DNA of 51,477 nt from an uncultured Pirellulaceae bacterium (GTDB lineage: Bacteria > Planctomycetota > Planctomycetia > Pirellulales > Pirellulaceae). Below the pieces are notes generated by a model. It did no database searches, had not been told where the DNA came from, and saw only the letters and a program-made list of their open reading frames with translations. Below, in pieces: positions 38 to 51,341 of this stretch. The DNA lies in assembly GCA_937929805.1 (NCBI GenBank), contig CALFUT010000070.1, positions 1 through 51,477 of the forward strand, read 5' to 3'. The translations under genes were made by a program, and so were the position numbers. Positions within the stretch are counted from its first letter, which is position 1; every line of letters begins with the position of its first letter.

Positions 38-904
38 ATGAAGATTGAGCCAAAAAATTATCTCGACCAATTCCTTTGCGGCGATGCGATCGAGGTCGCT
101 CGGACGCTGCCGGACGATTGCGTCGATACGATCGTCACCAGCCCGCCTTACTTCCAACAGCGTGACTACGGCAGTGATTTGCAGATCGGAATCGAATCTA
201 CTCAGCAGGAATACATTCAACGTTTGGCGGATTTGTTCGAAGAACTTCGCCGAGTCGTTAAACCGACGGGATCGGCGTGGGTCGTGATCGGTGACAAATA
301 CCAAAAGGGCGAACTACTTGGAATTCCGTGGCGCGTTTGTTTTGGGCTCAAAGAGATCGGTTGGCAACTGAGAAGTGACTGTATCTGGCACAAGCCCAAC
401 GCAATGCCCTCCAGTGCGAAGACTCGGCCGACGACCGACCACGAGTACATCTTCTTCTTTAGTCACTCGAAAAAGTATCACTACGATGCTGATGCGATTC
501 GCGAGCCGCACGTGACGTTTTCAGAGAACTCGAAAATGAAAGGTGGCCGAAAGCATTTTGGCAAACGAGGCGGAACGCCCGAGCAAGGTAAAAACCAAGG
601 AGACAATAATCTCCATGATGGGCGTTGGGACCAAGCGTTTCATCCGTCGGGCCGCAACAAACGCACGGTCTGGTCGATTTCGCTGTCGAAATTTCGTGAG
701 GCTCATTTTGCCGTCTATCCTCCGCAGCTGGTGGAAACTTGCATCAAGGCAAGCTGTCCTGAAGGCGGCGTTGTGTTGGATCCGTTCTCCGGGGCAGGTA
801 CCACGGCGTTGGTGGCTCGCAGCCTAGGGCGGCACTTCATCGGCATCGATTGTGTTGATGAGTATTGCGATCTGGCTCGCCGCCGGTTGGACGACCGTCA
901 ATAG
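38..904 (+). CDS. Site-specific DNA methyltransferase (amino-MTase, beta class)
   Basis: Transfers a methyl group from S-adenosylmethionine to an exocyclic amino group of a base in DNA. The catalytic motif IV reads TSPPY at residues 34-38 and the AdoMet-binding motif I reads DPFSGAGTT from residue 248. Catalytic motif first and AdoMet motif last is the beta-class order. SPPY rather than DPPY is most often found in N4-cytosine enzymes, but the base cannot be decided from sequence. The 288-residue length is normal for a stand-alone enzyme. The ATG directly follows an in-frame TGA. No restriction endonuclease is visible downstream, so it is either an orphan regulatory methylase or its partner lies left of the window. 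The TAG stop (902-904) coincides with the left end of a repeat element. Confidence 0.9.
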   Translation: MKIEPKNYLDQFLCGDAIEVARTLPDDCVDTIVTSPPYFQQRDYGSDLQIGIESTQQEYIQRLADLFEELRRVVKPTGSAWVVIGDKYQKGELLGIPWRVCFGLKEIGWQLRSDCIWHKPNAMPSSAKTRPTTDHEYIFFFSHSKKYHYDADAIREPHVTFSENSKMKGGRKHFGKRGGTPEQGKNQGDNNLHDGRWDQAFHPSGRNKRTVWSISLSKFREAHFAVYPPQLVETCIKASCPEGGVVLDPFSGAGTTALVARSLGRHFIGIDCVDEYCDLARRRLDDRQ

Positions 905-1080
905 CTGGGCAGCGTGGTTTTCGCTGGATGAAGCCGATGCTTGGGAGGGGAAGGCTCCGTCCGCCCCGCTCGGATGGTTGGGCTTTTTGTTCCGCATGGC
1001 TCGGACGGAGCCTCGGCCCTCCCGATGACTCTACCGTCTTCAAAACATCGTTCAAATTGGAAAACTAGCGCTGCCCAACT
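903..1080. repeat. MITE-like dispersed repeat, copy A
   Basis: A roughly 178-bp element with terminal inverted repeats: AGCTGGGCAGCG at 903-914 and CGCTGCCCAACT at 1069-1080, 11 of 12 positions matching. Inside is a nested hairpin: GGGAGGG (943-949) with CCCTCCC (1017-1023), and GGCTCCGTCCG (953-963) with CGGACGGAGCC (1002-1012). A second copy of almost the same length lies at 5459-5635 and a remnant at 51306-51341. It has no coding capacity. The left end overlaps the methyltransferase TAG stop codon. Confidence 0.8.
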
Positions 1081-1445
1081 GGTAGTTATTCAACGCTTGC
1101 TTGACAACTTTCTGGGTGCCATGCCTTACGCTTGCGTGAAAGTGCTTACGCAAGCGTGAAGCATGGCACCCTACATCGATGTCGTATGGACAAGTAGCGT
1201 GTTTGGTCAAATGCACGGCAAGCATCGCTAGCACTCGAGCGAACACCGTTCTGGCAAATTGGGCAATGTTAAGTTGTACCAATTATTGAAAAGGTGCCGG
1301 AAATACTCATGGTGCCGGTCATCCCGAGTCGATGGATTGTGCTACATGAACAACTTTTGCGGGCGCTCATTGCGCTTGGTGTAGGTCGTTTGTGACGTCC
1401 ATTTTCCAGTTTTGATCGCGTCGGGCTAAAACCCGGGAGACATCG
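905..1445. other. Intergenic spacer with two repeat elements
   Basis: This 541-base spacer holds the MITE-like repeat and the long palindrome listed separately. From 1171 to 1445 I see no convincing gene or clear sigma-70 promoter. A GGGAGA stretch just before 1446 could serve as ribosome-binding site for the next gene. Confidence 0.6.
1115..1170. repeat. Long palindromic hairpin (REP-like)
   Basis: A 23-bp arm at 1115-1137 (starting GGTGCCATGC) pairs with 1148-1170 (ending GCATGGCACC) with two mismatches around a 10-base loop. There is no T-run, so it is not a standard intrinsic terminator. It differs in sequence from the repeat just upstream and looks like a separate REP-type palindrome. 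Confidence 0.75.
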
Positions 1446-4400
1446 ATGAAGATAAGATTGAGCCTAATCTGCATGGTCGCATTCCTGACTTCCATGAACG
1501 TCGCAGACGCTCAGTTACTGCACCACCATGCCGGCCGCGGTTTCCGGGGAGGCCAAGGACTTGCAACTGGAGGTGAATCAGCCTTTCGGCAGGTCAGTGG
1601 CGAGGTACAAGCTGGTGTTCCCGGTCGGTTTTGGTTTGAAGCCAACGTCGCGGATCGAGGATTGGGGTACCAAGGTTCATACTTGACCGTGGGCGGTAAG
1701 CGTCGACTGTTCGAGGACTTCTTGGACGGTCGATGGTTGTTTGAAGCTCAGCTTCACCACTCGATTGATGAAGACCAAGGCGATTTCTTTTCGAATATTG
1801 GAATCGAGCGGGTGTTCTCGATCCCCGCCGCGGGAGCCGATATCAGCTTGGGCGGTTGGTACGATTTTAATAGCGAGACAGATACCGGGTTCTCAAATCC
1901 GTTCCATCAGATCGGTGTCAGCGGAGCCATTAAGAGCCGCCGTTGGGACTTGTTGGCCAACGGATATTTTCCAATCGGAGAAACTGACTTTACGCTGGGC
2001 GATCCAACGGGCGAGACTCCCTTTGCACGAAATTTCATCCTGAGTTCGCCTGCGATCGACGCGGCACAAACCGGATTTGACGTGACCATGAGATGGCGTC
2101 CGAAACAATTGGCGTTCGCCAACGGTACCGTTGACTTCGGTGGTTATGGATATAAGTCTGACGAAATCGATTTCTTCGGTGGCGGCCGTGTACGTCTTGG
2201 TGTTCAAGTTTTACGTGGAGCCACGATCAGTGCCGAGGTCAACCACGACGAGCGATTTAATACGACAGGTGTGCTGAGCGTCGGTTGGACGTTTGGTGCC
2301 AACGGTGGCGTTGGCGGTGAATACGCCGGCATTGGTCGTGACCTTGAAGCGACACAACGAAATGACCATGTCGTTCGAGTGCTAACCGAGGCATCATTCG
2401 TTGTTAACCCGAACACTGGGTTGCCCTACAACGTTCTGCACGTCAACAACGAAGGTGGCGAGGACGGAATCAACGGACTTGGTACTTTCGAGCGTCCGTT
2501 CCTGACGCTTGCTGAAGCGGAGGCAGCAGGTTCCGCCGACGACGCAATCTTTGTCGCCTCGGGCGATGGGACGCCGAACGGTCTCGAGACTGGCTTGGCA
2601 TTGCAAAATCGTCAACTTTTGTTGGGTGATGGCGGCACGTATACCATTCCGAATGCAGCCACCGGTGGTGGTTTTCAGTTGGTGACGGATGGCGGAATCG
2701 GGCCAACGATCAGGAATCCACTAGGAACTTCTGTTGTCGAACTGGCTAACGGGAACCGTATCGCGGGTGTCACGATTGACGGCATTGGCACGAACAACGG
2801 CATCAACGGTAACAGCGTCAACAATCTGGCAATGGAAGATGTCAATGTCGTGAACGCCGGGTTGAATGGTGTTCGTTTGGACAATTTCACTGGCAATTTA
2901 GACATTCGTGACAGTAATTTCAGCGGCAATGGTGCATCGGGTCTTTTGGTTGACAACCTTACAGACAACACGGCCACGATCTTGCTGAACAACAATATCG
3001 CCTCGACTAACGGTTTGGACGGATTCACGTTCCAGCGTTCCGATCCAGCGTCAGCTTTCGATCCGGGGTCATTTATCCTTAACGCAAACACGACTAGCAA
3101 CAACTTTCGTCACGGTTTGTTCGTGAACAACTTCGCCAACACCTCGACGAACGGATTGAACATCCTGAATCATACCGCTGACGCGAACGTAAATACGGGT
3201 ATCGTGGTTGATACTGGAACCGGCAAGCTGAATATTCTTGCTCCGAACGTTACCAACAACTCGGTGAACGGCATTCGTATCACCGATTTCACTAGCGGCG
3301 TCGGTGACACCACGGTGATCGCTGGTGCAGGAAACAACAGTGGCCTGTTGGATGGCAACGGTCTTGGCGGTTCGAACTTGCTAATTGAGTTGACACAACC
3401 AAACTTAGTTCAGAACGTGTTGGTGACTGACATTGCGATCACGGGAAGTGGAGGTGCTGGTGTGGCCGTGTCCGCCACGGGTTCCGATACAGAACTGAAC
3501 TTCGATTTGAGAGACAACGTCTCGATTACTGATAACCTAGGTGACGGTATTTCTCTGGTATCAACGTTTGGTTCTACAATCAACGCAGATATTGGAAATC
3601 CAGATCTAACAACGGCTCCATTGCAGATCACGAACAACGCGTTTTTGAGCGGAGCGGGTATTTCGGTTCTCTCACAAGGTCTTGATGGTGAACTTGATCT
3701 TACTGCCGTCAATGCAAACATCAGCAACGTCGCGATCTTGAACGACGAAAACATTACGATTACCCCAGACGGTGTAGCAAATCTTGTTGGTGGCACGGTT
3801 GGTGTTGACATTGACTCAATAGGCAGCGCAATTGTCGATGTCGTGGTTGCCGACAGCAGCATCGGTAATCCAGCGGAAACTGCTGACCAACATGTTATCG
3901 ATGGTGTTGATATTCTTCTAGATAACGACAACAGCTTCAACCGAAAGCCAAATCGCGTGTTGCTCGATAATTTGGATGTGGTGGTCGGTTCTTCGGGTGA
4001 CCTGTTGGGCAACCTAGGAACTGGCGTGATTGTTACCACACTGGAAGATACGCTTTCAGACATTACGATCTCAGACTCGACCTTTCGGCCTAACAGCCAG
4101 CCGTTGGAGCCACTTGGACCAAATGATGGTGTGTTCGGTGACACGGTTGGAAAGAGTGGTATTGAGTTGACGGCGATAGGAGCTGCAGATTTTATTGACC
4201 CCGTAGATCCCATAGTGATGGGGCTTGGCCAAGGGTTAGCTGGTCCCGGAACGGTTGCGGCGGCCAACCCGGTTGGTATGGATGTCGTCAGCGATGGAAT
4301 GCATGACAACCTGACACAACTGACACTGCTGAATAACACGATTCGTGACTTTACGTTTGATGGTGTCGATATTGCCGCCTTTGGAGACGCACGCCTACTG

Positions 4401-5216
4401 CTCAATATTTCTGGAAACACCGTGGCAAACAATGGAGCTGGCCAAAATACGGATGCTGACGATGACAACGTCTTTGGCGAGGAACCACTGACTCCAGAAG
4501 AAGCTGCACCGAACACAACACAATTGACGTTCTTCGACGGTATCAACGTTGACGCCTTCGAAGCCAGTACCATTTCCGCCCGTATCCAAGGCAACTCGTT
4601 TCAAGATAATTTTGAGCGCGGTTTGAGTCTCAACACGTTCGATGACGCAACAGTCAATGCAATTGTTTCCGGTAATGGTTTCGCCGGCAACGATCGTGGT
4701 ACTGACGAGAATATTGATTCTCCGCTGTTGTCAGTTGGCGGTCCTACGCCTCCAGTAGGAGGCATTACGGGAGTGTTAGACTTTGAAGCCATCAACAATG
4801 AGGAATTCTACTTCCGTTCTTTCGAAACCCCTGTCTTTACCTTGACCGAGGATGAGTTTATGGACAGTGGAAATGGCGACCTGTTCGACCCTCTTGGCAT
4901 CGATGACGACGGAAACATGGGGGTGATTTTGTCGGATATGGGTACACCCGGAGTACGAATTCCGGGTAACGGTTTCAACGGTGCTGTAGATGTCGATGGA
5001 AATCCGATTCCAGCCGGAATGGACATTCTCGGCAATGTGATTCCAATTGGTCAGGCAACAATCAATCTAGCCGTGTTGAACAACGGATTCCAAAACGGTA
5101 CCGATATCCAAGATTTCTCTCTCGATGGGCTTGGTTTGACTCTGGGTGACTTTGGCTTCGCCGATGGCTTGATCGACACCGAGGAACTTCTCTTCCTCAA
5201 CCGATGCATTCCTTAA
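1446..5216 (+). CDS. Inverse-autotransporter-like outer-membrane protein with beta-helix passenger
   Basis: A 1256-residue exported protein. Residues 1-22 form a signal peptide (cleavage near ADA-Q). Residues about 48-285 are rich in alternating aromatic/polar strands and Gly turns and read like a 12-strand outer-membrane barrel of the intimin/invasin (type Ve) kind; a short RNDHVVRV linker follows at about 306. From about 330 to the end are repeated short strands ending in Asn/Asp/Gly turns (NNxxx, SGNGASGL, ADANVNTG) typical of a right-handed parallel beta-helix. Barrel first and passenger last is the inverse-autotransporter order. No catalytic motif was recognised, so adhesion or a surface role is an inference. 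It stands alone, with repeat elements on both sides. Alternative: a generic beta-helix protein whose N-terminal strands are not membrane-inserted. Confidence 0.8.
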   Translation: MKIRLSLICMVAFLTSMNVADAQLLHHHAGRGFRGGQGLATGGESAFRQVSGEVQAGVPGRFWFEANVADRGLGYQGSYLTVGGKRRLFEDFLDGRWLFEAQLHHSIDEDQGDFFSNIGIERVFSIPAAGADISLGGWYDFNSETDTGFSNPFHQIGVSGAIKSRRWDLLANGYFPIGETDFTLGDPTGETPFARNFILSSPAIDAAQTGFDVTMRWRPKQLAFANGTVDFGGYGYKSDEIDFFGGGRVRLGVQVLRGATISAEVNHDERFNTTGVLSVGWTFGANGGVGGEYAGIGRDLEATQRNDHVVRVLTEASFVVNPNTGLPYNVLHVNNEGGEDGINGLGTFERPFLTLAEAEAAGSADDAIFVASGDGTPNGLETGLALQNRQLLLGDGGTYTIPNAATGGGFQLVTDGGIGPTIRNPLGTSVVELANGNRIAGVTIDGIGTNNGINGNSVNNLAMEDVNVVNAGLNGVRLDNFTGNLDIRDSNFSGNGASGLLVDNLTDNTATILLNNNIASTNGLDGFTFQRSDPASAFDPGSFILNANTTSNNFRHGLFVNNFANTSTNGLNILNHTADANVNTGIVVDTGTGKLNILAPNVTNNSVNGIRITDFTSGVGDTTVIAGAGNNSGLLDGNGLGGSNLLIELTQPNLVQNVLVTDIAITGSGGAGVAVSATGSDTELNFDLRDNVSITDNLGDGISLVSTFGSTINADIGNPDLTTAPLQITNNAFLSGAGISVLSQGLDGELDLTAVNANISNVAILNDENITITPDGVANLVGGTVGVDIDSIGSAIVDVVVADSSIGNPAETADQHVIDGVDILLDNDNSFNRKPNRVLLDNLDVVVGSSGDLLGNLGTGVIVTTLEDTLSDITISDSTFRPNSQPLEPLGPNDGVFGDTVGKSGIELTAIGAADFIDPVDPIVMGLGQGLAGPGTVAAANPVGMDVVSDGMHDNLTQLTLLNNTIRDFTFDGVDIAAFGDARLLLNISGNTVANNGAGQNTDADDDNVFGEEPLTPEEAAPNTTQLTFFDGINVDAFEASTISARIQGNSFQDNFERGLSLNTFDDATVNAIVSGNGFAGNDRGTDENIDSPLLSVGGPTPPVGGITGVLDFEAINNEEFYFRSFETPVFTLTEDEFMDSGNGDLFDPLGIDDDGNMGVILSDMGTPGVRIPGNGFNGAVDVDGNPIPAGMDILGNVIPIGQATINLAVLNNGFQNGTDIQDFSLDGLGLTLGDFGFADGLIDTEELLFLNRCIP

Positions 5217-5632
5217 GCTAGAGAGCTATCGCGAAGCCCGGACGGAACCGGCCTTCGCCCACTGTATTGGCTTCGGTGTAACAAGGGATCGCGCTTGATC
5301 CTGAGGTGTTGACTGACAAAGTTGGAACGATTTAACCAAGTGGCATCGCGTCGCACGTAGAGTGGCCAACTAAAAACGAATGCGAATTGAAATCTAATTT
5401 CACGAGTCGTTCGTTCGTGCCAGCGATGGGTTCTGAGCCCTGAAATCTCTTCACTTCAAATTTGACACGGCCACTTTAGTTGAATGAAACCGATGTTTGG
5501 GAGGGGAAGGCTCCGTCCGCCCCGCTTTAATGGTTGAGCTCTTTGCTTCGCACGGCTCGGGCGGAGCCTCACCCTCCCGGCGACGCGCCGCCATAAAACA
5601 ACGGTGAAAATAGAAAAACGTGCTCTGTCCAA
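5217..5632. other. Convergent spacer between beta-helix gene and sensor kinase
   Basis: The 416-base spacer contains the hairpin at 5231-5258 and repeat copy B from 5459. Between 5260 and 5458 nothing gene-like was seen, only a small GGATC/GATCC stem at 5286-5301. Confidence 0.6.
5231..5258 (+). terminator. Hairpin just after the beta-helix gene
   Basis: GCGAAGCCCGG pairs with CCGGCCTTCGC (one mismatch) around a 6-base loop, 15 bases after the stop codon. No U-run follows, so intrinsic termination is uncertain; it may instead protect the 3' end of the mRNA. Confidence 0.4.
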
Positions 5633-5635
5633 CTA
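5459..5635. repeat. MITE-like dispersed repeat, copy B
   Basis: Close relative of copy A in the same orientation. It shares the GGGAGGGGAAGGCTCCGTCC core (from 5499), with the internal hairpin GGCTCCGTCCG (5509-5519) against CGGGCGGAGCC (5558-5568) and GGGAGGG against CCCTCCC (5572-5578). The right end is CTCTGTCCAACTA. The left end is a diverged inverted repeat near AATTTGACACGG. The right end overlaps the TAG stop codon of the sensor kinase gene (5633-5635, read on the minus strand). Confidence 0.8.
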
Positions 5636-8536
5636 ACTCTTCTCCACAAACGCTTCCACTTCCTGCTTCACCGCTTCCCAGTCGGCGTCCAATTGGTCGA
5701 GCAACCGATCTTCGTCGGGCATGATGCCGGCCTCGCCCATCCGTTCTAGCGCCAACGCGGGTTCGCGAATGAGATCGATTCCAAGGAATAACACCGATCC
5801 CTTGAGTGCATGGGCCGAGATGCGAAGGCGTCCCGCGTCATTGTCGGCGATGGATTGTTTGACATTGCCAATCATGTCCGGCCCCGCATCGATCAATGTC
5901 TGAGCCACAATTTTCAGCAGGTCTTGGTCGTTGTTGACTGCTTGAGCCGCCACGTCCCAATCGATAATCTTTTGCGGTGTTTGGTCCACGCTCATGTTTG
6001 GTGTCTCCTTGGGGGCAGAATCAGGCGTTGATTGGTTTTGGCCGGAGGTCAAGTCTTCCAGCATTTTTCGAAGTTCGGCAATTCGGATTGGTTTGGACAT
6101 GTAGTCGTCCATTCCAGCATCAAGGCAATCCTGCCGATCCCTAGCACGTGCGTGAGCCGTCATGGCGACGATAATGGTATGACCAGTCCGCCCCGTCCCA
6201 CGATCTTTGGACTCGATTTTTCGAATCGCCCGAGTCGCCTCTAGTCCGTCCATTTCCGGCATTTGAACGTCCATCAGAATCGCATCAAACTTTTTTTGCT
6301 GCCACAGCTCCAACGCTTCGCGGCCATGGTTGGCGACCGTGACTTGATGCCCGAACGATTCAAGAATCCCAACTGCCAGTTTTTGGTTAACGATATTATC
6401 CTCGGCCAACAGCAAGTCGAGTGACCTAGCCGCTTCGACGGTCTGTTCCGATGCGCTATCTGCTCGGTCGGAACTTGCTTGCTTTGCCAACGGGATCTTG
6501 AGTGCTGCGACAACTGCCTCAAAGACTTCGGCCTGTTTGACCGGTTTGGTTAATCTACCGACGATCCCCAGTTCCTTCATTCGGGCAGCGTGGTCCGGCT
6601 TCATGCCCGACGTCAGCATGATGACCGTCGCGCCAGCGATTTTGCGATCGTCTCTAATTTGCTGAACGAAATCCAGACCGTTGACGTGAGGCATTTGGAA
6701 GTCGGTAACGACCAGCGGCAACGGTTTGCCGGCCTGCTGAGTCTTCTTCAGGTTCGCGATTGCCTCGGCGGGTGTCTTGATGCTTTCGGGCCGCATGCCC
6801 CAGCCGCTGAGCATGTCGCAAAGAATACGCCGGTTGGTGTCGTTGTCGTCCACAATCAACGCACGCATTCCAACGAGTGCCTTGATCCGTTTGGCAACTT
6901 CTTCCGCATCAGCTTCTTCGACTTTCATGGTGGCGTCGAAGATGAACTTACTGCCTTTGCCTAGTTCACTTTCGACGGCGATCGATCCATTCATCAGCTC
7001 GATCAACTTTTTCGAGATCGATAGTCCAAGCCCGGTGCCGCCGTATTGACGCGTGGTCGATGAGTCCGCTTGTTCGAAGTCCTCAAAAACTGAGTCCAAT
7101 TTGTCCTTCGCGATCCCGATTCCAGAGTCCCGCACTTGGAACTCGAGAGTGACCGAATCAGCTGAACGGTTTTTCGCGATCACTTCGAGGACGACTTCGC
7201 CTTCGCTGGTGAACTTGATCGCGTTCCCAAGTAAGTTAACCAGAACTTGTCGCAAGCGGGCTCTGTCTGCGATCAGTCGATGAGGAACATCATTCGCCAC
7301 CGAAAAAAGCAGCTCAAGATCTTTGTTCTGGGCTCTGACCGAAAGCGTGCGGACGGTGTCTCCAACAAGATCGCGAAGATCAAACGGTTGAGGGTCGAGT
7401 TCGAATTTTCCCGCCTCGATTTTGGAAAAATCGAGAATGTGGTTGATCAGTTCCAGCAAAGATTCGCCGGACGACAACACCATGTTGAGGTATTCGCGTT
7501 GGTAGTCTGCCAAGTCTGTGTCGAGCAAAAGTTCGGAAATTCCGATCACGGCATTCATCGGCGTGCGAATTTCGTGGCTCATGTTTGCCAAGAATTCACT
7601 TTTTGCTCGATTCGCTTGGTCCGCCTCCTCTTTTGCTTTCCGCAATGCCTCTTCGGCACGAATCTGAGCCGTCACGTTACGCGAGATTCCAAAAGTGCCA
7701 ACGATGTTTCCCGCTTGATCGCGGAGCGGCATCTTCGTGGTTGACGCCCACGTGTCGGGCGAGTCGTCCCACGTTTCTTTTTCGATTTTGCCATGGATCG
7801 GCTTGCCTGTACGCATGATTTCCAGTTCGTCTTTTCGAGCCGCCTGCGCGTGTTCGTGGCTGAAAATATCCGCGTCCGTTTTGCCCAAGATCTCGTCGGG
7901 CGAGTTGTAACCGAACTTGATCGCTTGGGCTTGACTGCCGCGAATGAAACGACTGCCGACGTCTTTGAAGTAGATTGAATCGGGTATGTGATCCATCAAC
8001 GACTGCAATAAGTATCCCTCATGCGCCGCGGTGGCTTCGGCACGCTTGCGAAGCGTAACGTCCCAAAACACGGCCTTGGTGCCCACAATGTTTTCGCGTG
8101 CGTCACGCAAAGGTGATTTGCGAACTTCGACAAATGTCTTTCCCTCAATCGGATCGGAATCGCGCGGTGCACGTGCGGATTGGTCGGTTTCGATGACTTC
8201 GATGTCGCGAAACACATTGCCGGTTTCCATGACGTATTTGTCATCGGCTCGATACTTTTCGGCAAGCTGTTTTGGAAACAGATCGAAATCGGTTTTTCCA
8301 TAAAGCTGCGATGCGGGCTTGTCGAGCATTTTAGCGAATGCTTCATTCAAGTAGATCAGCTGACCGTCGGCATTTTTACAAACGACGCAGATCGGCAGTC
8401 GGTCAGCCAGCTGAGCAAAGAAGTCTGCCGGTGGACGAGGAAGCGCGGATGCAGTCCAAGATACGGGTCCGTTTTTCTCGAGGCCCTGTTCCAGACTCGA
8501 TTCGTCGCCCGGTTGAGAATTATCTACGTTGGTCAT
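5633..8536 (-). CDS. Hybrid sensor histidine kinase (PAS-PAS-HisKA-HATPase-REC-REC-Hpt)
   Basis: A 967-residue phosphorelay protein with no membrane segment. Two PAS domains (about 38-165 and 175-295) precede a short coiled coil. The dimerisation domain carries the phospho-accepting His321 in SHEIRTP. The ATPase domain has its N box near 433-440 (LVNLLGNAI) and glycine boxes at 470-475 and 499-504. The first receiver domain has D563/D564, phospho-acceptor D612 and K664; the second has E712/D713, D756 and K815. A C-terminal Hpt domain has His909 in SAHALKGS. All phosphotransfer residues are present, giving a full His-Asp-His relay in one chain. The output regulator is not adjacent. The input is probably cytosolic (redox, small ligand or light through PAS), but no cofactor-binding signature is clear. 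Confidence 0.95.
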   Translation of the reverse strand: MTNVDNSQPGDESSLEQGLEKNGPVSWTASALPRPPADFFAQLADRLPICVVCKNADGQLIYLNEAFAKMLDKPASQLYGKTDFDLFPKQLAEKYRADDKYVMETGNVFRDIEVIETDQSARAPRDSDPIEGKTFVEVRKSPLRDARENIVGTKAVFWDVTLRKRAEATAAHEGYLLQSLMDHIPDSIYFKDVGSRFIRGSQAQAIKFGYNSPDEILGKTDADIFSHEHAQAARKDELEIMRTGKPIHGKIEKETWDDSPDTWASTTKMPLRDQAGNIVGTFGISRNVTAQIRAEEALRKAKEEADQANRAKSEFLANMSHEIRTPMNAVIGISELLLDTDLADYQREYLNMVLSSGESLLELINHILDFSKIEAGKFELDPQPFDLRDLVGDTVRTLSVRAQNKDLELLFSVANDVPHRLIADRARLRQVLVNLLGNAIKFTSEGEVVLEVIAKNRSADSVTLEFQVRDSGIGIAKDKLDSVFEDFEQADSSTTRQYGGTGLGLSISKKLIELMNGSIAVESELGKGSKFIFDATMKVEEADAEEVAKRIKALVGMRALIVDDNDTNRRILCDMLSGWGMRPESIKTPAEAIANLKKTQQAGKPLPLVVTDFQMPHVNGLDFVQQIRDDRKIAGATVIMLTSGMKPDHAARMKELGIVGRLTKPVKQAEVFEAVVAALKIPLAKQASSDRADSASEQTVEAARSLDLLLAEDNIVNQKLAVGILESFGHQVTVANHGREALELWQQKKFDAILMDVQMPEMDGLEATRAIRKIESKDRGTGRTGHTIIVAMTAHARARDRQDCLDAGMDDYMSKPIRIAELRKMLEDLTSGQNQSTPDSAPKETPNMSVDQTPQKIIDWDVAAQAVNNDQDLLKIVAQTLIDAGPDMIGNVKQSIADNDAGRLRISAHALKGSVLFLGIDLIREPALALERMGEAGIMPDEDRLLDQLDADWEAVKQEVEAFVEKS

Positions 8537-8592
8537 GGTAGCACTCCGGCGTGGTTGATCATGGTCGACCGTTCAACGCTAGTCTGACAATG

Positions 8593-8598
8593 ATTGTA
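8593..8598 (-). promoter_or_regulatory. Possible -10 box for the sensor kinase gene
   Basis: Read on the minus strand, TACAAT lies 57 bases upstream of the kinase ATG. A weak -35 candidate (CGGTTG) sits 16 bases further upstream. The -10 is good but the -35 is poor. Confidence 0.25.
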
Positions 8599-8757
8599 GC
8601 AGAGTTTTTCTACGCAACCGCTGATTGAAGCCAATTTGCGGTTGGTAAAACGAGTGATCTCCTGCGGCAGAACCATTTGGCGTGAACCTGTTCCGGTTGC
8701 CCATCTAAGGGAAACTTGTGAAGATTGTGTTTCGAAGTTGAACTCCCCGAGTTAGAA

Positions 8758-8970
8758 ATGTCACTAGACGAACAACTGAAATCTGAAAGATCGATTCTTA
8801 ACCGTCCCTACGTCTTGGTGGCCGTTGGGTTTGGGCTGGGCTATCTGGCAAGATTGGTGCTCGGACCGCCTGCGGGCGAACTAGAGGCGGTTCACCGCAG
8901 GTTTGAGCGACCGATGCCTGTCGCGAAACCCGAGGTCGATGTGCCGCTGGATCGTGAAACCGGTTCGTAG
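8758..8970 (+). CDS. Small predicted single-pass membrane protein
   Basis: A 70-residue frame starting at ATG 8758 (MSLDEQLK). A TTG 33 bases upstream would extend it. A hydrophobic stretch rich in Gly and Val at about residues 18-38 could span the membrane, followed by a polar Arg/Pro-rich tail. No family was recognised. It points the same way as the protease gene 250 bases downstream but is separated from it by a promoter-like sequence. It may be a chance frame; the charge distribution and Met position make it plausible. Confidence 0.4.
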   Translation: MSLDEQLKSERSILNRPYVLVAVGFGLGYLARLVLGPPAGELEAVHRRFERPMPVAKPEVDVPLDRETGS

Positions 8971-9018
8971 CCGCCCGGATGACGTTCGGGCTTTGCAAAT
9001 AATCAGAGACTGGAAAAT

Positions 9019-9046
9019 TTGAATTCAACGGGGTGATGGCTATACT
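9019..9046 (+). promoter_or_regulatory. Sigma-70-type promoter for the protease gene
   Basis: TTGAAT (9019-9024) and TATACT (9041-9046) are separated by 16 bases. The position, about 170 bases before the protease ATG, would give a long leader. The match is good but not proven. Confidence 0.4.
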
Positions 9047-9220
9047 AAGGTCATAAGCGTTGCAGAGATGATTTTGGATTCGGTAATACGGATCGGTGTC
9101 GGGTCGAACATGGCACTCGCGAAATAATAACCTACCGACTTCTTTGGCCATTGGGCGAGGAATCCGTCCTCGTTTCGCGTGCTCAAATCGGTCATTTACT
9201 TTCTGGCGAGTGCTTGGCAC

Positions 9221-10645: not shown

Positions 10646-10854
10646 CTTCAATCTGCCGGGCTGGTTTGCTAGCCGAGTTGGCTTTGAATCGGTTCCGCAA
10701 CGCGCTCTGGTTAATGAGCACGCTCTCCAAAAAACATCCTGCGCTTTGCGAAATATTTTCGATCGTGGCGGTTGGTTCGTTCGCCAAGGCAGGAATGATC
10801 AATTCTGGTTGTATTAAAATTGACCAGTGTTCAATTTTGCTCCATCTACGAAAA

Positions 10855-10886
10855 AAGGCGGCAGGCATCAATTTGCCGGCCGCCTT
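10855..10886. terminator. Bidirectional terminator-like hairpin
   Basis: AAGGCGGCAGGCA pairs with TGCCGGCCGCCTT with one mismatch and a short loop. On the minus strand it is followed by a run of six T, the form expected of an intrinsic terminator. On the plus strand the tail is weaker (GTTATATTTT). It lies between two convergent genes. Confidence 0.65.
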
Positions 10887-10920
10887 GTTATATTTTGTGG
10901 AAAAAAGCTTGAAAAAGCGA

Positions 10921-10950: not shown

Positions 10951-10970
10951 CACTGCCTCGTCTCTATATC

Positions 10971-21854: not shown

Positions 21855-21863
21855 GCAGCAAGT

Positions 21864-40643: not shown

Positions 40644-41022
40644 AAGTTGTGCAAACTCAAATTTCATGAGTACGTGTCAATACCTTGGTATCCGTTGAAC
40701 CAACGGCTGCTTGTTGGCCATTGTTGGAAATTCGTCAGGCACTGATCATTGGGAACAATCGGCGAAAAGTGTCGCGTGTGAGAGCGTTTTGTCAAAACGC
40801 GTCCGATTGCAAATGTTCTGAACTTGGTTTTTAAAGGTCTCCGGCGCAAACGCTCAGCAAGTCACGTTATACAGATGGCGTTGCGGTGGTGAGCACAATG
40901 TCAGCACAGGAGACTCGATTTCGGGATCCGCTTCGTTCCCCGGATTCCCAGTATGATTTCGGGTCCACGCGGCGTCACTGGGATTGTAAGGCATGTAACG
41001 TCAACTTTTTGATTGGTTACCA
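40644..41022. other. 379-base spacer between smc and the dockerin protease gene
   Basis: No gene was recognised. It contains a near-perfect palindrome at 40784-40800 (GCGTTTTG, T, CAAAACGC) that could be an operator. A partial direct repeat also occurs, GATTTCGGGATCCGC at about 40917 and GATTTCGGGTCCACGC at about 40955, and a CCCAGT/ACTGGG pair brackets the second copy. Confidence 0.4.
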
Positions 41023-42543: not shown

Positions 42544-42640
42544 ATTGTGAACCTGTTTGCCTTGAGTGCATTTCAGAACCACGTCGGGAGGTTTGCCCAA
42601 CGCTTGATATCCTGATTTGACATTTCAATGAGACGGTGGC

Positions 42641-44104: not shown

Positions 44105-44470
44105 GGGACTATCGATTTCATTCTGCCAATCGCCAATGCGATCAAGCCTTGCAGCGTTGTTGGTTGATGTAAACGGCTATCCGGGATTTAACCCTGCAAT
44201 CGGCCAAACGGTCCGCCGATTGTAACATTTTTTCTAAAACGAAACGGCTTTTGATTAGCCCGTCGATTGGTAAGACAGCGATCCTGACGCTCATCTGTTT
44301 TCTGCCTTGGGTTCTGCCTTGGGGCTCCGAAACCTCTCGCCAATCCATACGACTGGTTGCAAGATCGATTCTACGCGATGGATCGAAGAAATTTTCCCTC
44401 TTTCACGAGGAAAATGGCCTAGATTTTCGATGGGCTGGCCGATCTGCTTGGCCACATTGACGATCAAGTT
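44105..44470. other. Divergent spacer with a 12-bp tandem repeat
   Basis: The 366-base region holds no clear gene. TTCTGCCTTGGG occurs twice head to tail at 44300-44311 and 44312-44323. Promoters for both flanking genes must lie here, but I could not pick convincing -35/-10 pairs. Confidence 0.4.
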
Positions 44471-46519
44471 TTGCTTTCTTCACAGAGTGTTACCTTGAGT
44501 ATTCCAAATCGATTGCTGACGTCTCTACCGGTTGCCGCACTACGCAGGCTGGTTCACAGTTGGCGGCTAAACCAAGGGACGGGGGCACCGCGGCGTCGAA
44601 CCGGATCGGACCGCCGTACTTTGCAGTTTAGTTCACTTGAATCGCGATCCATGCTGGCAACGATCGTGGTGGATTACTCGTTTGACAGCCAAGGCTTCTT
44701 CGATGACACCGCACGACGGGATGCAGTCGAGGATGTTGCGTCTGCGATTAGTGATTCGCTCAATGATACCCTCGATGCAATCGTGCCTAGCGGCATCAAC
44801 ACTTGGTCACAGCGTTTCTTTCATCCCGGGACAGGAGATTTTGGGTCGCACGTGAGTAACCCAACGGTCAACGCGGACGAGATCGTGGTGTACGTGGGGG
44901 GGCGGGATTTAGGCCCTGGCGCTTTGGGGCTTGGTGGTCCCGGCGGATTCAGCGCCAGTGGTACGCAGGCATGGTTTGACGCCATTAGCGAACGCGGCGA
45001 GTCGGGTGTCGCGAACGATGACGATTTCGCGCCATGGGGTGGGACGGTTTCGTTTTCTACGGCAGTCAACTGGCACTTTGGCGAAACGACCACCGATCTT
45101 GATGCCAGTGAGTTTGATTTTCGGTCTGTCGCCTTTCACGAATTCTATCACGTCTTGGGGATCGGTACTTCCGACTCATGGGATGCGCGGGTCGATGTCA
45201 GTAACGTTACATTCACCGGAACGGCTACGGTGGCTGAGTATGACGGTGCGGGGGATGTCCCACTGTTCAGCGATCTCGCTCACTTTGCCGAGGGAACAAC
45301 CGACAACGGTCGTAACTCAGCGTTAGATCCAAGCATTCCAAACGGCACGCGCGAGTTACCGACTGATCTCGACAACGCCGCTCTCACCGACATCGGATGG
45401 GAATTTGCTTCGCCGGGTATTGGCGAGGTGTACGCGTTGGGCAGTGACTTGGTTGTGAATGGAACGGACGATATCAACTTGATCGAAGTGCGAGGCTCAA
45501 CAGGTGAACTTCGCATTTTGGTGGATGGTTTTGATCACGGCCTGTTTGCTCGCCCCAGCGGCCAATTGATTGTCAACGCTTTAGAGGGAGATGACGAAAT
45601 TCGGCTACAGCCAACGGTTAGCGTTGACTCAATGCTCAATGGCGATGCGGGGAATGACTTTATTCGTGGCGGCGTTGGTGTTGACACGATTTACGGCGGT
45701 GCCGGAAACGATCGCCTGTTTGGTCGTGATGGCGACGATTTTATTTTTGGAGAAGCAGGAAACGATCGTTTGTTGGGCATGGAAGGAAATGACACGCTTG
45801 AAGGCGGTGCAGGAGCCAACACGCTGACCGGTGGAGCCGGCAATGACCAAATTACCGGCGGAGACGACATCGATACCGTTTTTGGAAGCGGGGGAAATGA
45901 CACGATCTACGCGGGTGGCGGAGCAGACATCATTTCGGGTGGAACGGGAGACGACATGATCTACGGAGGCTCGGGCGATGATGAAATCACTGGCCAGAGC
46001 GGCGTCGATACGATTTATGGTGAAGCTGGCATGGACATGATCTTTGGCGGAGCGGGCGACGACATGTTGTTTGGTGGAGCCGACGACGACGAAATTCACG
46101 GGGGCGGAAACTCGGACACCATCGAAGGTGGTGCGGGGAACGACATGTTATTTGGTGACCAAGCGAATGATTTTCTGTTCGGAGGCTTGGGCGATGACAT
46201 CCTGTACGGTGGCACCAGTCCCGACGAGCTATATGGCGGATTGGGGAACGATACGTTGCATGGCGGAGGCGCCGTCGATCTTCTGTTTGGCGAACAGGGA
46301 GAAGATAAACTTTACGGTGGCTTCGACAATGACATTTTGCGAGGCGGAGATGACGACGACGAACTCTTTGGAGAGGGCGGCTCAGACGATTTGTTTGGCG
46401 ACTCTGGCGACGACATGCTGACCGGCGGTCTGGCCGCTGACTTGCTGGACGGCGGAACCGGGTTCGACACCGCATTGGACAACGGTGAACGCGGAGAGAT
46501 TGATATCGAAGTGAGTTAG
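44471..46519 (+). CDS. Exported RTX (calcium-binding) protein with N-terminal zincin
   Basis: 682 residues. The N-terminus has the planctomycete-type motif LESRSMLA (about 56-63) after a basic segment, apparently an export signal. Residues about 65-310 form a zincin domain with HEFYHVLGIG at 223-232 (His223, Glu224, His227). From about 390 to 665 are tandem nine-residue calcium-binding RTX repeats of the GGAGNDxL/U type, filling about 45640-46470 on the DNA. No type I secretion genes are adjacent, and the end (IDIEVS) is not a known RTX secretion signal. The start is a TTG (44471 or 44495), as no ATG occurs before the motif. Protease activity is inferred. Confidence 0.85.
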   Translation: MLSSQSVTLSIPNRLLTSLPVAALRRLVHSWRLNQGTGAPRRRTGSDRRTLQFSSLESRSMLATIVVDYSFDSQGFFDDTARRDAVEDVASAISDSLNDTLDAIVPSGINTWSQRFFHPGTGDFGSHVSNPTVNADEIVVYVGGRDLGPGALGLGGPGGFSASGTQAWFDAISERGESGVANDDDFAPWGGTVSFSTAVNWHFGETTTDLDASEFDFRSVAFHEFYHVLGIGTSDSWDARVDVSNVTFTGTATVAEYDGAGDVPLFSDLAHFAEGTTDNGRNSALDPSIPNGTRELPTDLDNAALTDIGWEFASPGIGEVYALGSDLVVNGTDDINLIEVRGSTGELRILVDGFDHGLFARPSGQLIVNALEGDDEIRLQPTVSVDSMLNGDAGNDFIRGGVGVDTIYGGAGNDRLFGRDGDDFIFGEAGNDRLLGMEGNDTLEGGAGANTLTGGAGNDQITGGDDIDTVFGSGGNDTIYAGGGADIISGGTGDDMIYGGSGDDEITGQSGVDTIYGEAGMDMIFGGAGDDMLFGGADDDEIHGGGNSDTIEGGAGNDMLFGDQANDFLFGGLGDDILYGGTSPDELYGGLGNDTLHGGGAVDLLFGEQGEDKLYGGFDNDILRGGDDDDELFGEGGSDDLFGDSGDDMLTGGLAADLLDGGTGFDTALDNGERGEIDIEVS

Positions 46520-46590
46520 TCCGATTGAGGCTGCAATCAAATCGGATGCTTTATCAAATCGGATGCTTAAACCAATCGGAAGTTGCACTT

Positions 46591-46666
46591 AATACAAGCC
46601 CGAAGCGCAAGCGAGTGGATGTCCGAGGGCTTTCCGATTTCCTTGCTCGCGCCTCGGACTTGTATT
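46591..46666. repeat. Imperfect palindrome (REP-like) between convergent genes
   Basis: AATACAAGCCCGAAGCGCAAGC (46591-46612) and its near inverse complement at 46645-46666 pair with 3 mismatches of 22, around 32 bases. The arm resembles intergenic palindromes I associate with Pirellulaceae genomes. It lies between the RTX gene and the BON protein gene. Confidence 0.7.
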
Positions 46667-46742
46667 GCAAACGCTCGGGAATCACCACGCCACGCTTTGC
46701 AGAATCAAATTGCCTGAAATGCGAAAGTGTGCAACTTCAGAA

Positions 46743-47519
46743 TCAACGAGCGTTGCTGCTGCCGTTTGGAATGACTTCGATCTGATTGATGATCTGATAG
46801 ACGCCCGGTTCTAGCCGCAGTTGTCGTTCCCAGCGATCACGCTCGGTCAACGAGCCGACAAAGCCGGTCAGGATAGCCGTCCGATTCTGGACTTGGACGT
46901 TCACGCCAGACGTTGAAACACTTGAGAACACCGCATCTGAAAACGGCGGCCCGGCGGGTTGCGGCACCGGCTGTCGCGAGAATCGATCTTGGAATCGAGA
47001 AACAATTTGTTCGCCCGGGATCGGCGGCGCGTTAATTCTTGGTACCAATCGAGCCCGAACACTCGAACGAATCACTTGAAAGCCGTTTTCCGTTCCACCA
47101 CCCAGTTGTCCAGCGTCTCCAAAGCCTCCGTTGAAACCTCCACCCCCGCCAGCACCACCGGGGTTGCCTGCTGTGCCGCCACCACCGCCACCTCCGGCTT
47201 GAACACCGCTGTTGTTGATGTCGCCGCCAAAGGTTGCACCTTCACTCAAAGGAGGTCCACTGGTTTCCGAAGAGGCTCCCACGAATCCGAGTTCCTGAAT
47301 GCCGGTTGCCGTTGCACCGACGAAACCTTGGTTGCGAGTATCCTCGGTATTTGTCCCCAAATCCAATTCGGCCGGTTCGAAACCGCCGTCTCCTGTGAGC
47401 CCGCCTCCAGCATCGCCACCACCACCGACGTCAACTCCGCCGCCCGGGTCGAGCTGTCCGATCGCAGCCGCGGGGGGCAACGTGAGAATCAATACTAGAA
47501 ATAAAACGATGTAGGGCAT
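46743..47519 (-). CDS. Exported glycine-rich protein with C-terminal BON domain
   Basis: 258 residues. The signal peptide covers 1-21. Residues about 22-150 are dominated by Gly/Asn/Pro runs of low complexity. The C-terminal about 75 residues (VNVQVQNRTAILTGFVGS, RDRWERQLRLEPGVYQIINQIEV) fit a BON domain, a module thought to contact membranes or ligands (as in OsmY). The Gly-rich region may act as a flexible linker. No partner gene is evident. The ATG is the only good start. Confidence 0.82.
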   Translation of the reverse strand: MPYIVLFLVLILTLPPAAAIGQLDPGGGVDVGGGGDAGGGLTGDGGFEPAELDLGTNTEDTRNQGFVGATATGIQELGFVGASSETSGPPLSEGATFGGDINNSGVQAGGGGGGGTAGNPGGAGGGGGFNGGFGDAGQLGGGTENGFQVIRSSVRARLVPRINAPPIPGEQIVSRFQDRFSRQPVPQPAGPPFSDAVFSSVSTSGVNVQVQNRTAILTGFVGSLTERDRWERQLRLEPGVYQIINQIEVIPNGSSNAR

Positions 47520-47873
47520 GACGGCTCGATTCGTTCCGCATTTATAAAGTGGGCGTGACTTCGTCTTATCGGTAATGGTTGACGCCTGCCTTGAAAACGT
47601 TGGTATAATTTAACGTTTGGATAAACTGGCGCGTAGTTCTCAGGGTGCAAATGTCCTCGGGGAACCGCTTCGTCGTGAATAACGTAGGAAAATCTCATCT
47701 ACGGGACGATCCGCTCACTCGGAAACTCGCTCCAATGTGACTAAAATGCCGACGCGGCGGCTAGATTCAAGTCCGTGAATATCAGCGATTGCGTTCCAAG
47801 GGTACGCTTTGGAAATCGTCCGAATCGTGGCTCGATGGTCCGCTCAAACGACAATCTATTTTATGGGAACAAG
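47520..47873. other. Divergent spacer with a promoter-like sequence
   Basis: This 354-base region between the BON gene and the large secreted gene contains one promoter candidate (listed separately). A start at 47775 (ATG-type frame) is possible for the downstream protein but is less likely than 47874. Confidence 0.45.
47579..47609 (+). promoter_or_regulatory. Promoter candidate for the large secreted protein
   Basis: TTGACG (47579-47584) and TATAAT (47604-47609) are separated by 19 bases, longer than the optimum of 17. The -10 hexamer is perfect. It lies about 265 bases before the preferred ATG. Confidence 0.35.
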
Positions 47874-49769
47874 ATGAACGAATCAAATTTTTGGTCTAAA
47901 CCGTACCGATCCCGTATGGCGGGTCGGGCGCAGAACTCGATTCTCATGGCATTACCAATGTTGGCGGTTTTAGTGTTCACTTCGGCGATGCTAGCCCAAG
48001 ATGCGCCGCCGCGTCCTGCGATCGAGGAGTTATTGCCAGAGACGACTGCTGCGTTTCTGCAGATTGACAATGTGCAGGAATCGTTGCCCAAGCTGATGGG
48101 TGCGGAGATGCTCGAGGACGAAAACATTGGTCCTTTCGTGCAACGAATGTACGACGAAGCCGAAGCGGCTTACACGGAAGTTACCGAAGGTAAAGTTGGC
48201 ATGACTTTGGAACAGATCAAGGACCTGCCGGCCGGTGAACTTTGTCTGGCCGTGATTGCTCCTCGCCGGAAGGATCTTGAGTACTTGATTGCCGTCGACA
48301 TTGACCCGGAATCCGAGTCTGCCGAAATTGTCGCGCAGTCTCGGACGGAGTGGACGGAACTGCTGGCCGACAAAGGACTCACCGAGACCGTTGAAGCAAC
48401 GGAATCCGGAGTCGAAATTTACTCGTACGATCTTCCGGACATGCCCAAGAAGGCACACGCGTTTGTGCGTGATGGCTGGTTTGTCAGTTGCACTGCAAGA
48501 GACGAATTGGAGGCCGTGCTGGCTCGTTGGGAAGGGTTGGAAGTCGAGAAGGTTCGACCGCTCAAGGAAAACCGAAAGTTCGTCACGGTCATGAACCGGT
48601 GCCGTCCCACAGAAGATATCCAGCCCGAGATTCGGTATTTTGCGGATCCGATTTCGCTTGCTCGCGGTGGTTTTCGTGGGAACACGATTGCTCAGGGCGT
48701 GCTGGCGTTTCTACCCAAGGTCGGGCTTGATGGCGTGTTGGGCTTGGGCGGCAGTATTTCGCTGCAAAGCGAAGAGTTCAACAGCGTTTCTCATGCCCAC
48801 TTGTTGTTGGCAAACCCTCGCGCTGGCATTTTAGAAATGTTGGCGCTGAAGCCGGGTGACGGCGATCCACAACCGTGGATCCCCGCCGATGCAACCAACT
48901 ACATTTCCACGCATTGGGATCCGATGCAGGCGGTCAACGAGTTCGAAAAAATTGTCGATACGTTTTCGCCCGATGGCGAGTTCCAAAAGGAAGTCGTGGT
49001 CAAACTGAAAGAACGAACTGGGTTGGACTTCTACGAAGATGTTGTCAATACGGTCGACGGTCGATTCACCTATCTCGAATGGGCCGACCCGGAGACGGAG
49101 TTCTTGATGAACGCTCGGTCTAGGGCGGTAGCGCTGGGAGTGGTCGATATGGAAAAGGCCAAAGAAGTCGTGGATGAGCTGATCAACATGAGAGCCGGCA
49201 AGGATGGAAAAAGCGGATCCTCGACGGTCGAGCACGAAGGCGTGCCGATGTGGGTGTTCGATCCTCCAAGCGAAGAGATACAAGCGCTTCGTGAAAAACG
49301 AACCAAAGAGCGAGTCGGGGATCTTCCGATGCGTTTCTCTGACCCAGCGTTCTGTTTGCTGGACAATAGTTTGATCCTTTGTGATTCGGCCGATATGGTG
49401 AAGCACTTGATTGACGTAAGTCTCGGGAATGCACCCGCCATGGCGGAGGACGAAGAATATACTCAGCAGATGCAACGGCTGACGGAGGCTGCCGGGTCGG
49501 ATGTGCCATGTGCAGTAACGTTCTTTAACCCTGAAGGGCCCATGCGTCAGTTTTTCAAATTGATGGGCGACGAGCGTTCGGCGACCATGGTTGAAAAGAT
49601 GAGCGAGAAGAATCCGATGTTGGCTAGGTTTCAAACAGCGTTGGCCGAGCAACCGTTGCCGGAATTTGACCTGATCAAGCGGTACTTCCGACCGACTGGC
49701 ATGATCGTCACGACCGATGACACCGGCTACCACATGCTGGCTTTTCAGTACGGACCGAGCGAAGAATAG
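47874..49769 (+). CDS. Large secreted protein, DUF3352-like, planctomycete type
   Basis: 631 residues from ATG 47874 (GGGA 11 bases upstream); an upstream start at 47775 would add 33. The signal peptide is basic then hydrophobic, with cleavage near MLA-QDA. The body has alternating beta/alpha segments (FLQIDNVQESLPKLMG, GELCLAVIAPRRKD, AFVRDGWFVSCTARDELEAVL), reminiscent of DUF3352-type proteins, without a catalytic motif. No family can be named firmly. No neighbour suggests a role. trkA follows 192 bases downstream on the same strand. Confidence 0.65.
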   Translation: MNESNFWSKPYRSRMAGRAQNSILMALPMLAVLVFTSAMLAQDAPPRPAIEELLPETTAAFLQIDNVQESLPKLMGAEMLEDENIGPFVQRMYDEAEAAYTEVTEGKVGMTLEQIKDLPAGELCLAVIAPRRKDLEYLIAVDIDPESESAEIVAQSRTEWTELLADKGLTETVEATESGVEIYSYDLPDMPKKAHAFVRDGWFVSCTARDELEAVLARWEGLEVEKVRPLKENRKFVTVMNRCRPTEDIQPEIRYFADPISLARGGFRGNTIAQGVLAFLPKVGLDGVLGLGGSISLQSEEFNSVSHAHLLLANPRAGILEMLALKPGDGDPQPWIPADATNYISTHWDPMQAVNEFEKIVDTFSPDGEFQKEVVVKLKERTGLDFYEDVVNTVDGRFTYLEWADPETEFLMNARSRAVALGVVDMEKAKEVVDELINMRAGKDGKSGSSTVEHEGVPMWVFDPPSEEIQALREKRTKERVGDLPMRFSDPAFCLLDNSLILCDSADMVKHLIDVSLGNAPAMAEDEEYTQQMQRLTEAAGSDVPCAVTFFNPEGPMRQFFKLMGDERSATMVEKMSEKNPMLARFQTALAEQPLPEFDLIKRYFRPTGMIVTTDDTGYHMLAFQYGPSEE

Positions 49770-49961
49770 TAAGGATTTGCTCAATAATAAATTACCGGAT
49801 GCAGCTCCAAATCATTCGGGAAATCCGGACGATAAAGCATGTCCGTTAAGTAACTTGTTTATCCGCAGATCCTAAATTCGGACGATTGAGCGCACGATGT
49901 TGGGATAGATTTTGAATCCAGCTCGTGCGAAAACAGCCTGTCACCGAAAGTCCATTCCAGT

Positions 49962-51308
49962 ATGAACATTATCATCCTTGGCGCGGGAACCGTTGGAACC
50001 TCCATCGCGGATCGCTTGTGCCAATTGGAACATAGCGTGACGGTCGTTGATATTGACCCAGAAATGGTTCGAGTGATTAACGAAAGCTTTGACGTCCGCG
50101 CGATCGTTGGATCGGCGTCGCAGTCCAGCGTTTTGTTTCAGGCCGGGATTAGCACGGCCGATATCTGCTTGGCGGTCACGGGCAAAGACGAGGTCAACAT
50201 CGTGGCGGCCAGCATGGCCAAAGCGATGGGCGTTCGTCGCTCGATTGCTCGCGTTTATTCCCCCGTGTTCCGCGATCTTAGCACGTTCGACTATCAGCGG
50301 CACTTTGGAATTGACCGCATGCTCTCGTTGGAGCACCTGACGGCGATGGAGTTGGCTCGAGCGATTCGTGATCCCGGCAGCGTGGTGGTCGAGCAGTTTG
50401 CTCGTGGTGGCCTTGAAGTTCAAGAGCTTGTTGTTGGGCAACAGGGGAAGGTCACCGACCATCCAATCCGCGACCTCGGCCTACCGTCCAACGTTCGGAT
50501 GGGGATGGTCCAGCGAGAGAAACGTTTCTGGATTGCGGCTGCCGACGACCAACTGCAGGTTGGCGACAAGGTGACCGTGTTCGGCCGTCCCGAAGATATC
50601 AAAGTCGTCAGAGCGCTGTTTAAAAGTGGCACGCCGAAAGCGAAACGAGTCGTGATCGCCGGCGGTGGCGAGACTGGATTGCAGCTGGCTAGAACGCTGG
50701 AACGAGAAAGCTACAAGGTGATGGTGCTGGAGTCCGATGAGGCTCGCTGTCAAATTCTGGCGGGAATTCTTGAGACTGCCGCCGTTGTTCACTGTGACGC
50801 AAGGCGGCGTGAGAACCTTGAAGAACAGCGGGTCGGCAACGCAGATGTCTTCGTTGCGTGTACGGGCGACGACGAGGATAACATGATGTTGGGCGTCGAG
50901 GCGGACGATCTGGGTGCCGACCAGATTATGACGGTGATTGATCGTCCCGATTATTGCAGCATCACTCAAAAGTTGGGCATTAATTTGGCCGTCAGCGAAC
51001 AGAACGTGATGGCTAGACAGATTTTGTCCTACTTGAACGACGGAATCGTCGTCAGCCGCGCGAAAATGCCTGGCGGCTTGATCAACGTGATTGAAGTCGA
51101 TGTGCTGGACGGATCACCGGCGACCGAATCGGCCGTGAAGGATCTTGGATTGCCGGATCGCTGCCTGATTGTGGCCGTGATTCAGCAGGACTATGTCCGC
51201 GTGCCCGGTGCGAACGATCGATTGTCGGCGGGCGACACTGCGGTCATCTTGTTGGAAGACGATGTGGTCGACGCAACGCTGGCGGTGTTCGTTCCTGCGT
51301 CACCTTAG
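49962..51308 (+). CDS. trkA: Trk potassium-uptake regulatory subunit TrkA
   Basis: 448 residues, the standard double-domain form. It gates the TrkH/TrkG potassium channel in response to NAD(H)/ATP from the cytoplasmic side. Two Rossmann RCK_N domains, GAGTVG at 7-12 and GGGETG near 229-234, are each followed by an RCK_C (TrkA_C) domain. The length and order match E. coli TrkA. No trkH is adjacent within the window. The TAG stop coincides with a repeat remnant. Confidence 0.95.
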   Translation: MNIIILGAGTVGTSIADRLCQLEHSVTVVDIDPEMVRVINESFDVRAIVGSASQSSVLFQAGISTADICLAVTGKDEVNIVAASMAKAMGVRRSIARVYSPVFRDLSTFDYQRHFGIDRMLSLEHLTAMELARAIRDPGSVVVEQFARGGLEVQELVVGQQGKVTDHPIRDLGLPSNVRMGMVQREKRFWIAAADDQLQVGDKVTVFGRPEDIKVVRALFKSGTPKAKRVVIAGGGETGLQLARTLERESYKVMVLESDEARCQILAGILETAAVVHCDARRRENLEEQRVGNADVFVACTGDDEDNMMLGVEADDLGADQIMTVIDRPDYCSITQKLGINLAVSEQNVMARQILSYLNDGIVVSRAKMPGGLINVIEVDVLDGSPATESAVKDLGLPDRCLIVAVIQQDYVRVPGANDRLSAGDTAVILLEDDVVDATLAVFVPASP

Positions 51309-51341
51309 CTCAGCGGCCCCAATGTTCGGGAGGGTAAGGCT
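51306..51341. repeat. MITE-like dispersed repeat, remnant copy C
   Basis: TAGCTCAGCGG followed by CCAATGTTCGGGAGGGTAAGGCT resembles the left end and core of copy A (TAGCTGGGCAGCG and CCGATGCTTGGGAGGGGAAGGCT; 20 of 23 core bases agree with copy B). The right half is missing. It begins exactly at the trkA TAG stop. Confidence 0.6.

Follow-up and report, generated by a model that had tools for sequence, protein, structure and literature searches.

A probable IS701-type MITE with a REP-like hairpin whose target motif coincides with stop codons in an uncultured Pirellulaceae bacterium

The repeat that adjoins stop codons in the window (the whole stretch of DNA analysed, 51,477 nucleotides) is very probably a non-autonomous MITE of the IS701 type with a REP-like hairpin, its link to stop codons arising from a YTAR target combined with selection. 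The window is contig C70 of G000, a draft assembly of 4.2 Mb divided among 74 contigs, called the own genome below. We observed directly the ends of the element, its target duplication, a Blastopirellula marina IS701 element that shares these ends, the depletion of copies in genes and their bias towards gene 3' ends. An earlier note on the window had called the repeat MITE-like, which was right and can now be sharpened to an IS701-type MITE. The stop codon belongs to the target sequence and not to the payload of the element, and its coincidence with the repeat is mostly ordinary. A target motif that equals a stop codon makes insertion there harmless, and it offers repeats a simple route to settle on gene ends and look functional. 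The analysis also names a likely transposase family for a repeat of many planctomycete assemblies, in which several contigs end inside it.

Element anatomy, copies and hairpin core

The element is a non-coding MITE of 172 bp with inverted ends TTGGACAGCGCCA; the aligned ends give the consensus YTAR-TTGGACAGCGCCA ... TGGCGCTGTCCAA-YTAR. As in other MITEs, copies are multiple and no transposase gene is present in the 172 bp. The target duplication is 4 bp long and mostly YTAR (CTAG, CTAA, TTAG or TTAA), which is the target motif of IS701 in ISfinder; some copies have the variant sites GTAG/CTAC, ATAG or CTAT. Left and right 4-mers were identical in 11 of 27 pairs in the own genome (permutation mean 4.9, p = 0.001) and in 30 of 41 public pairs among the matches listed (permutation mean 9.5, p = 1e-4), for which the search pattern required TAR at one end.

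Two near-complete copies had been noted in the window before, and sequence and repeat searches found both, with boundaries better drawn to exclude the 4-bp target sites (Table 1). Their flanking 4-mers, ATAG/CTGG for copy 1 and CAAA/CTAA for copy 2, are decayed duplications. Of the terminal inverted repeats said to be shared, those of copy 1 were recovered by the repeat search (903-914/1069-1080, 92%), but the same search reported none for copy 2, whose left end has decayed. The shared hairpin was borne out: allowing 3 mismatches, motif GGGAGGGNAAGGCTCCGTCCG matched three times in the window, always inside the two copies, against 0.01 matches expected. With 2 mismatches allowed, half-motif CGGGAGGGTAAGGCT matched four times against 0.07 expected, once exactly (51327-51341) within what had been described as a remnant at 51306-51341. 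A chance match of this hairpin half is unlikely; the stretch is nonetheless only a probable MITE fragment, because the remnant itself supplied the search pattern and its terminal repeat, CTCAGCG, resembles the MITE end only weakly. Open reading frame ends confirmed the coincidence with a TAG stop at all three sites. An Rfam search of window positions 1-9000 gave no match.

Table 1. Features of the MITE in the window, and its junctions with a second MITE elsewhere in the own genome
Feature	Position	Strand	Remarks
Left target site of copy 1, ATAG	901-904	.	includes TAG stop (902-904) of ORF 38-904
MITE copy 1	905-1078	+	79% identity with the recent query copy
REP-like inverted hairpin core, copy 1	943-1023	.	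inverted-repeat and motif search; extent read from sequence
Decayed right-flank duplication of copy 1, CTGG	1079-1082	.	
MITE copy 2	5461-5632	+	83% identical to the recent copy; left terminal repeat decayed
REP-like hairpin core, copy 2	5499-5578	.	motif search
Right target site of copy 2, CTAA (minus strand: TTAG)	5633-5636	.	includes stop (5635-5633) of minus-strand ORF 8536-5633
TTAG target-like site	51305-51308	.	with TAG stop (51306-51308) of ORF 49962-51308
Probable left-end fragment of MITE	51309-51341	+	weak terminal repeat, then CGGGAGGGTAAGGCT
Second-MITE junctions with the first MITE	L004, L005, L006, L008, L010, L019, L036		own genome

Across the own genome we obtained at least 48 match rows with a window copy as query and at least 44 with a recent copy; each search scored 40 of ~150 first-look candidates, and further copies may exist. 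Forty rows reached at least 110 bits and 38 were used, after a contig-end duplicate of L010 (L032) and a row without a usable end (L015) were dropped; a few of these 38 are decayed or hardly more than the core. At least 12 rows are at least 95% identical to the recent copy, and the element has therefore been recently active; the window copies are older. In relatives, the recent copy matched 8 of 60 genomes (own genome counted), mostly in the core or ends only, with one full-length copy of 86% identity in G010. A pattern scan of public sequences returned at least 113 stretches; the public set comprises the 80 loci listed, related loci being counted separately. Their titles name planctomycetes in 63 cases (including four Candidatus Kuenenia, which we take to be planctomycetes) and just 'bacterium' in 17. 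Among the public matches listed, 40 of 41 convergent end pairs were spaced 100-654 bp.

Several observations accompany these counts. Own-genome contigs C48, C50 and C18 end inside MITE copies, and at least nine G044 contigs terminate inside the same terminal repeat, within ~100 bases, a pattern suggesting that assembly lost a longer element present in multiple copies. Two copies, L038 (C39:52496-52865) and L027 (C12:223351-223593), are interrupted by ~190 and ~90 bp of other DNA and are possible nested insertions. A second MITE of ~108 bp, with ends GCTTTGTCCCAAAA, lies directly against the first at seven own-genome places, where both have the target 4-mer in common (Table 1). It gave 21 match rows in the own genome; of 12 places fetched at a distance from the first MITE, 9 were resolved as pairs, with CTAG on at least one side in 9/9 and on both sides in 4/9.

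The recent copy L006 folds as a long hairpin (-91 kcal/mol, z -8.0; other strand -88.9 kcal/mol, z -7.0). Its core can be called a REP-like pair because these central 80 bases are also found singly and as tandem repeats at other loci (L028, L037), so that paired inverted REP palindromes, as in REPINs and BIMEs, exist outside the MITE. The tandem core arrays, at L028:1492-2257 and L037:2540-2835, are without MITE ends. The likeness to REP/BIME/REPIN systems with RAYT thus lies in two inverted GC-rich palindromes found within the MITE, alone and in tandem; unlike those systems, the MITE holds its pair within DDE-type terminal repeats and a target duplication. The own genome has 10 Y1_Tnp domain matches. 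An unlikely but more elaborate arrangement would have two layers: a DDE-type MITE that captured a RAYT-type REP pair, the hairpin spreading by two unrelated transposition routes, with YTAR stops as a safe harbour and host selection making use of the 3' structure.

A putative IS701-family partner

Blastopirellula marina DSM 3645 carries a 1785-bp element (L151:312-2096) with the same ends within 2 mismatches and CTAA on both sides; it is the exception in spacing among the 41 listed public end pairs. Inside it lie two fragments of a disrupted IS701-family transposase, which match the NCBIfam IS701 transposase with E 1.7e-41 and 1.4e-16, both under the whole-protein cut-off, and Pfam DDE_5 matches the first piece only (E 4e-32). 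The MITE thus has its ends in common with an IS701 element, although the transposase there is broken. A transposase with matching inverted repeats, which the earlier note had proposed to look for, therefore exists in B. marina in this broken form, but a profile search for IS701 (PF13546) found none in the own genome.

The same search gave no match in four of five other genomes, and the 3.8-kb stretch containing the sole match elsewhere, in G010, has no such MITE end, even at 4 mismatches. MITE status does not need a partner transposase in the same genome; since the own genome, a draft of 74 contigs, gave no PF13546 match, mobilisation is something that we infer. Five DDE_Tnp_1 (PF01609) matches were found in the own genome. 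An end pair 2.9 kb apart on G047:C337 was considered as an intact partner and rejected; its interior contains several long ORFs that look like host genes by eye. Beside the B. marina element lies a second, uninterrupted IS701 gene (L151:2098-3638, a single 423-aa ORF above the family cut-off), which has other inverted ends (19 nt, 95%) and directly adjoins the duplicated target of the broken element; the tandem arrangement resembles that of the MITE and the second MITE.

The MITE shares with IS701-family elements and their derived MITEs the 4-bp duplication and the ends of an element bearing an IS701 transposase. It differs from IS701 elements in being only 172 bp long, with no room for a transposase, in its REP-like core and in having no own-genome partner. 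Part of one report cites other IS701 members with duplications of 4 or 5 bp and describes two Geobacillus IS701 elements with duplications of 4-9 bp and no target consensus, against the 4-bp, mostly YTAR duplication of the MITE (PMC8024623). Haloquadratum MITEs, as treated in part of another report (PMC3119063), are apparently mobile without a functional partner transposase in the genome, in which they are alike; they are archaeal and of other families, unlike the planctomycete MITE. Our literature search found no paper joining MITE, Rhodopirellula and transposase, none joining IS701, YTAR and target site, and none joining IS701, MITE and terminal inverted repeats; we make no claim that the repeat is absent from print.

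We hypothesize that an IS701-family transposase would act in trans on the TTGGACAGCGCCA ends and insert the element at 4-bp sites, most of them YTAR, that become duplicated. At a gene's own terminal Y-TAR, the gene would stay intact because TAR is identical to TAA or TAG and is kept by the duplication, the gene-side duplicate still giving a stop. The stop itself preceded the insertion, because the TAG or TAA belongs to the duplicated target. Insertions in genes and in promoter gaps would then be purged, and the survivors would gather just behind genes, exact stops included, with selection and not target choice as the probable cause of the 3' bias.

Placement relative to genes and stop codons

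Genes were called with a simple 3-periodic caller (coding density 0.78), and no annotation was used. A first caller, based on codon log-odds and with a coding density of 0.68, had shown a stronger excess of stops, 8/25 vs 26/468 (p = 1e-4), or 8/25 vs 32/429 (p = 6e-4) at a lower threshold; it was replaced because genes that a caller misses add to the intergenic count. The coincidence seen at three of three sites in the window holds there, but genome-wide it drops to 9 of 38 own rows, of which five have the left and four the right end of the element at the stop, with no preferred orientation to the gene. Among own two-ended copies (n = 26), 8 are on a stop, 17 intergenic and 1 in a gene, and 1/12 one-ended copies is on a stop; the available YTAR sites of these loci (n = 1054) divide into 31, 315 and 708. 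Listed public two-ended copies (n = 39) divide into 4, 34 and 1, against 77, 569 and 912 of the YTAR sites at those loci (n = 1558); 9/42 listed public one-ended copies are on a stop. Copies are strongly depleted in genes (own 1/26 vs 708/1054 sites; listed public 1/39 vs 912/1558). Divergent, promoter-bearing gaps are avoided by own copies (1/25 vs 91/346 sites) and more weakly by listed public copies (6/38 vs 168/646). Outside genes, own two-ended copies exceed the YTAR sites in exact stops (8/25 vs 31/346, p = 0.002), not significantly so against CTAG sites only (8/25 vs 9/70, p = 0.064), and no excess appears in listed public two-ended copies (4/38 vs 77/646, p = 1). The 100-nt zone next to gene 3' ends is enriched in own copies (19/25 vs 108/346, p = 1.2e-5), with the share of exact stops inside it not raised (8/19 vs 31/108, p = 0.28); for listed public two-ended copies the zone holds 18/38 vs 214/646 (p = 0.08).

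Counting per element end takes in one-ended copies; these counts omit one own and four public ends with less than 300 bases of flank and one in-gene copy per set, and their p values are uncorrected for multiplicity. Exact stops were found at 9/62 own ends vs 31/692 (p = 0.003). Listed public ends gave 13/116 vs 78/1292 when pooled (p = 0.045), 4/76 vs 78/1292 for two-ended copies (p = 1) and 9/40 vs 78/1292 for one-ended copies (p = 0.0007). Ends at most 100 nt away from the 3' end of a gene numbered 27/62 vs 113/692 in the own genome (p = 1.7e-6) and 36/116 vs 234/1292 in the listed public set (p = 0.001). Among these near-3' ends, exact stops made up 9/27 vs 31/113 (own, p = 0.64), 13/36 vs 78/234 (listed public, pooled, p = 0.85) and 9/14 vs 78/234 (listed public, one-ended, p = 0.04). 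Pooled, the enrichment of exact stops is no greater than that of the whole zone behind genes. The earlier suggestion of insertion at stop codons thus stands insofar as exact stops are enriched, as a by-product of the target, because the TAR trinucleotide equals a stop codon, but the pooled counts give no excess beyond the 3' zone.

The one-ended public excess, both overall and within 100 nt of gene ends, is the strongest point against an origin in target and selection, and a small extra stop preference beyond target choice is possible. Together with the own exact-stop excess, it would fit a transposase that takes stop codons or gene ends themselves as its signal, for instance via translation or transcription termination, and inserts there deliberately. 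We consider this very unlikely, given the non-significant comparison with CTAG sites, the listed public two-ended copies and the pooled counts within the 100-nt zone. A TA target of the IS630/Tc1 type, in which 2 bp are duplicated and the element tip is a G, would account for the nearly invariant TA and the common CTAG, both features of IS630 targets. It is extremely improbable, as the two sides match over all four bases, the outer as well as the inner ones (TTAG/TTAG, CTAA/CTAA, CTAC/CTAC), and the sole partner found is IS701; the 2-bp TA model was dropped because left/right agreement spans 4 bp.

The very stable fold on both strands of L006 and the enrichment of own and listed public copies within 100 nt of gene 3' ends are what would be expected if the hairpin served at gene ends to terminate transcription or, as a 3' structure, to stabilise mRNA, much as REP/BIME sequences do, and the element were kept for it. 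Terminator-like sites (GC hairpin plus T run) between 800 and 5800, however, number 3 against a shuffled mean of 6.2, one of them (968-983) within copy 1; stops show no orientation preference, and purging from genes and promoters accounts for the bias. A functional 3'-end role, the other option raised before, is accordingly unsupported, with no U-tract terminator beyond chance in that interval, and we regard it as quite unlikely. An IS701-type MITE with a YTAR target, sorted by selection, remains our preferred reading.

Matched genes in relatives

The nearest genome by trkA identity (88%) is G010, where trkA ends with TTAG and no repeat. For the nine other stop-associated gene ends, six G010 matches were examined and taken as orthologues, the match of L033 being left out; in these six the element is absent from the 70 nt after the stop. 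Six of the seven matched G010 genes stop at the same place or within two residues. The claim that the element's ends supply the TAG therefore fails: the TAG or TAA lies within the duplicated target, and these genes stop there without the element. The same TAG in relatives without the repeat, a check suggested with that claim, was seen in part: the place is kept in six of seven, but TAG in only two, with TAA in one, TGA in three and one frame that runs on. The stop contexts include TTAA in a presumably FtsH-like gene and GTAG in one that we take to be shikimate-kinase-like. Because relatives stop at or near the same place without the element, the C-termini are mostly older than the insertions, with frequent turnover of the stop triplet itself. 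The kinase of G010 has a TGA stop two residues earlier, and the methyltransferase frame is ~30 codons longer in G010, whereas in G024 its end, CTAG, lies close to that of the window gene.
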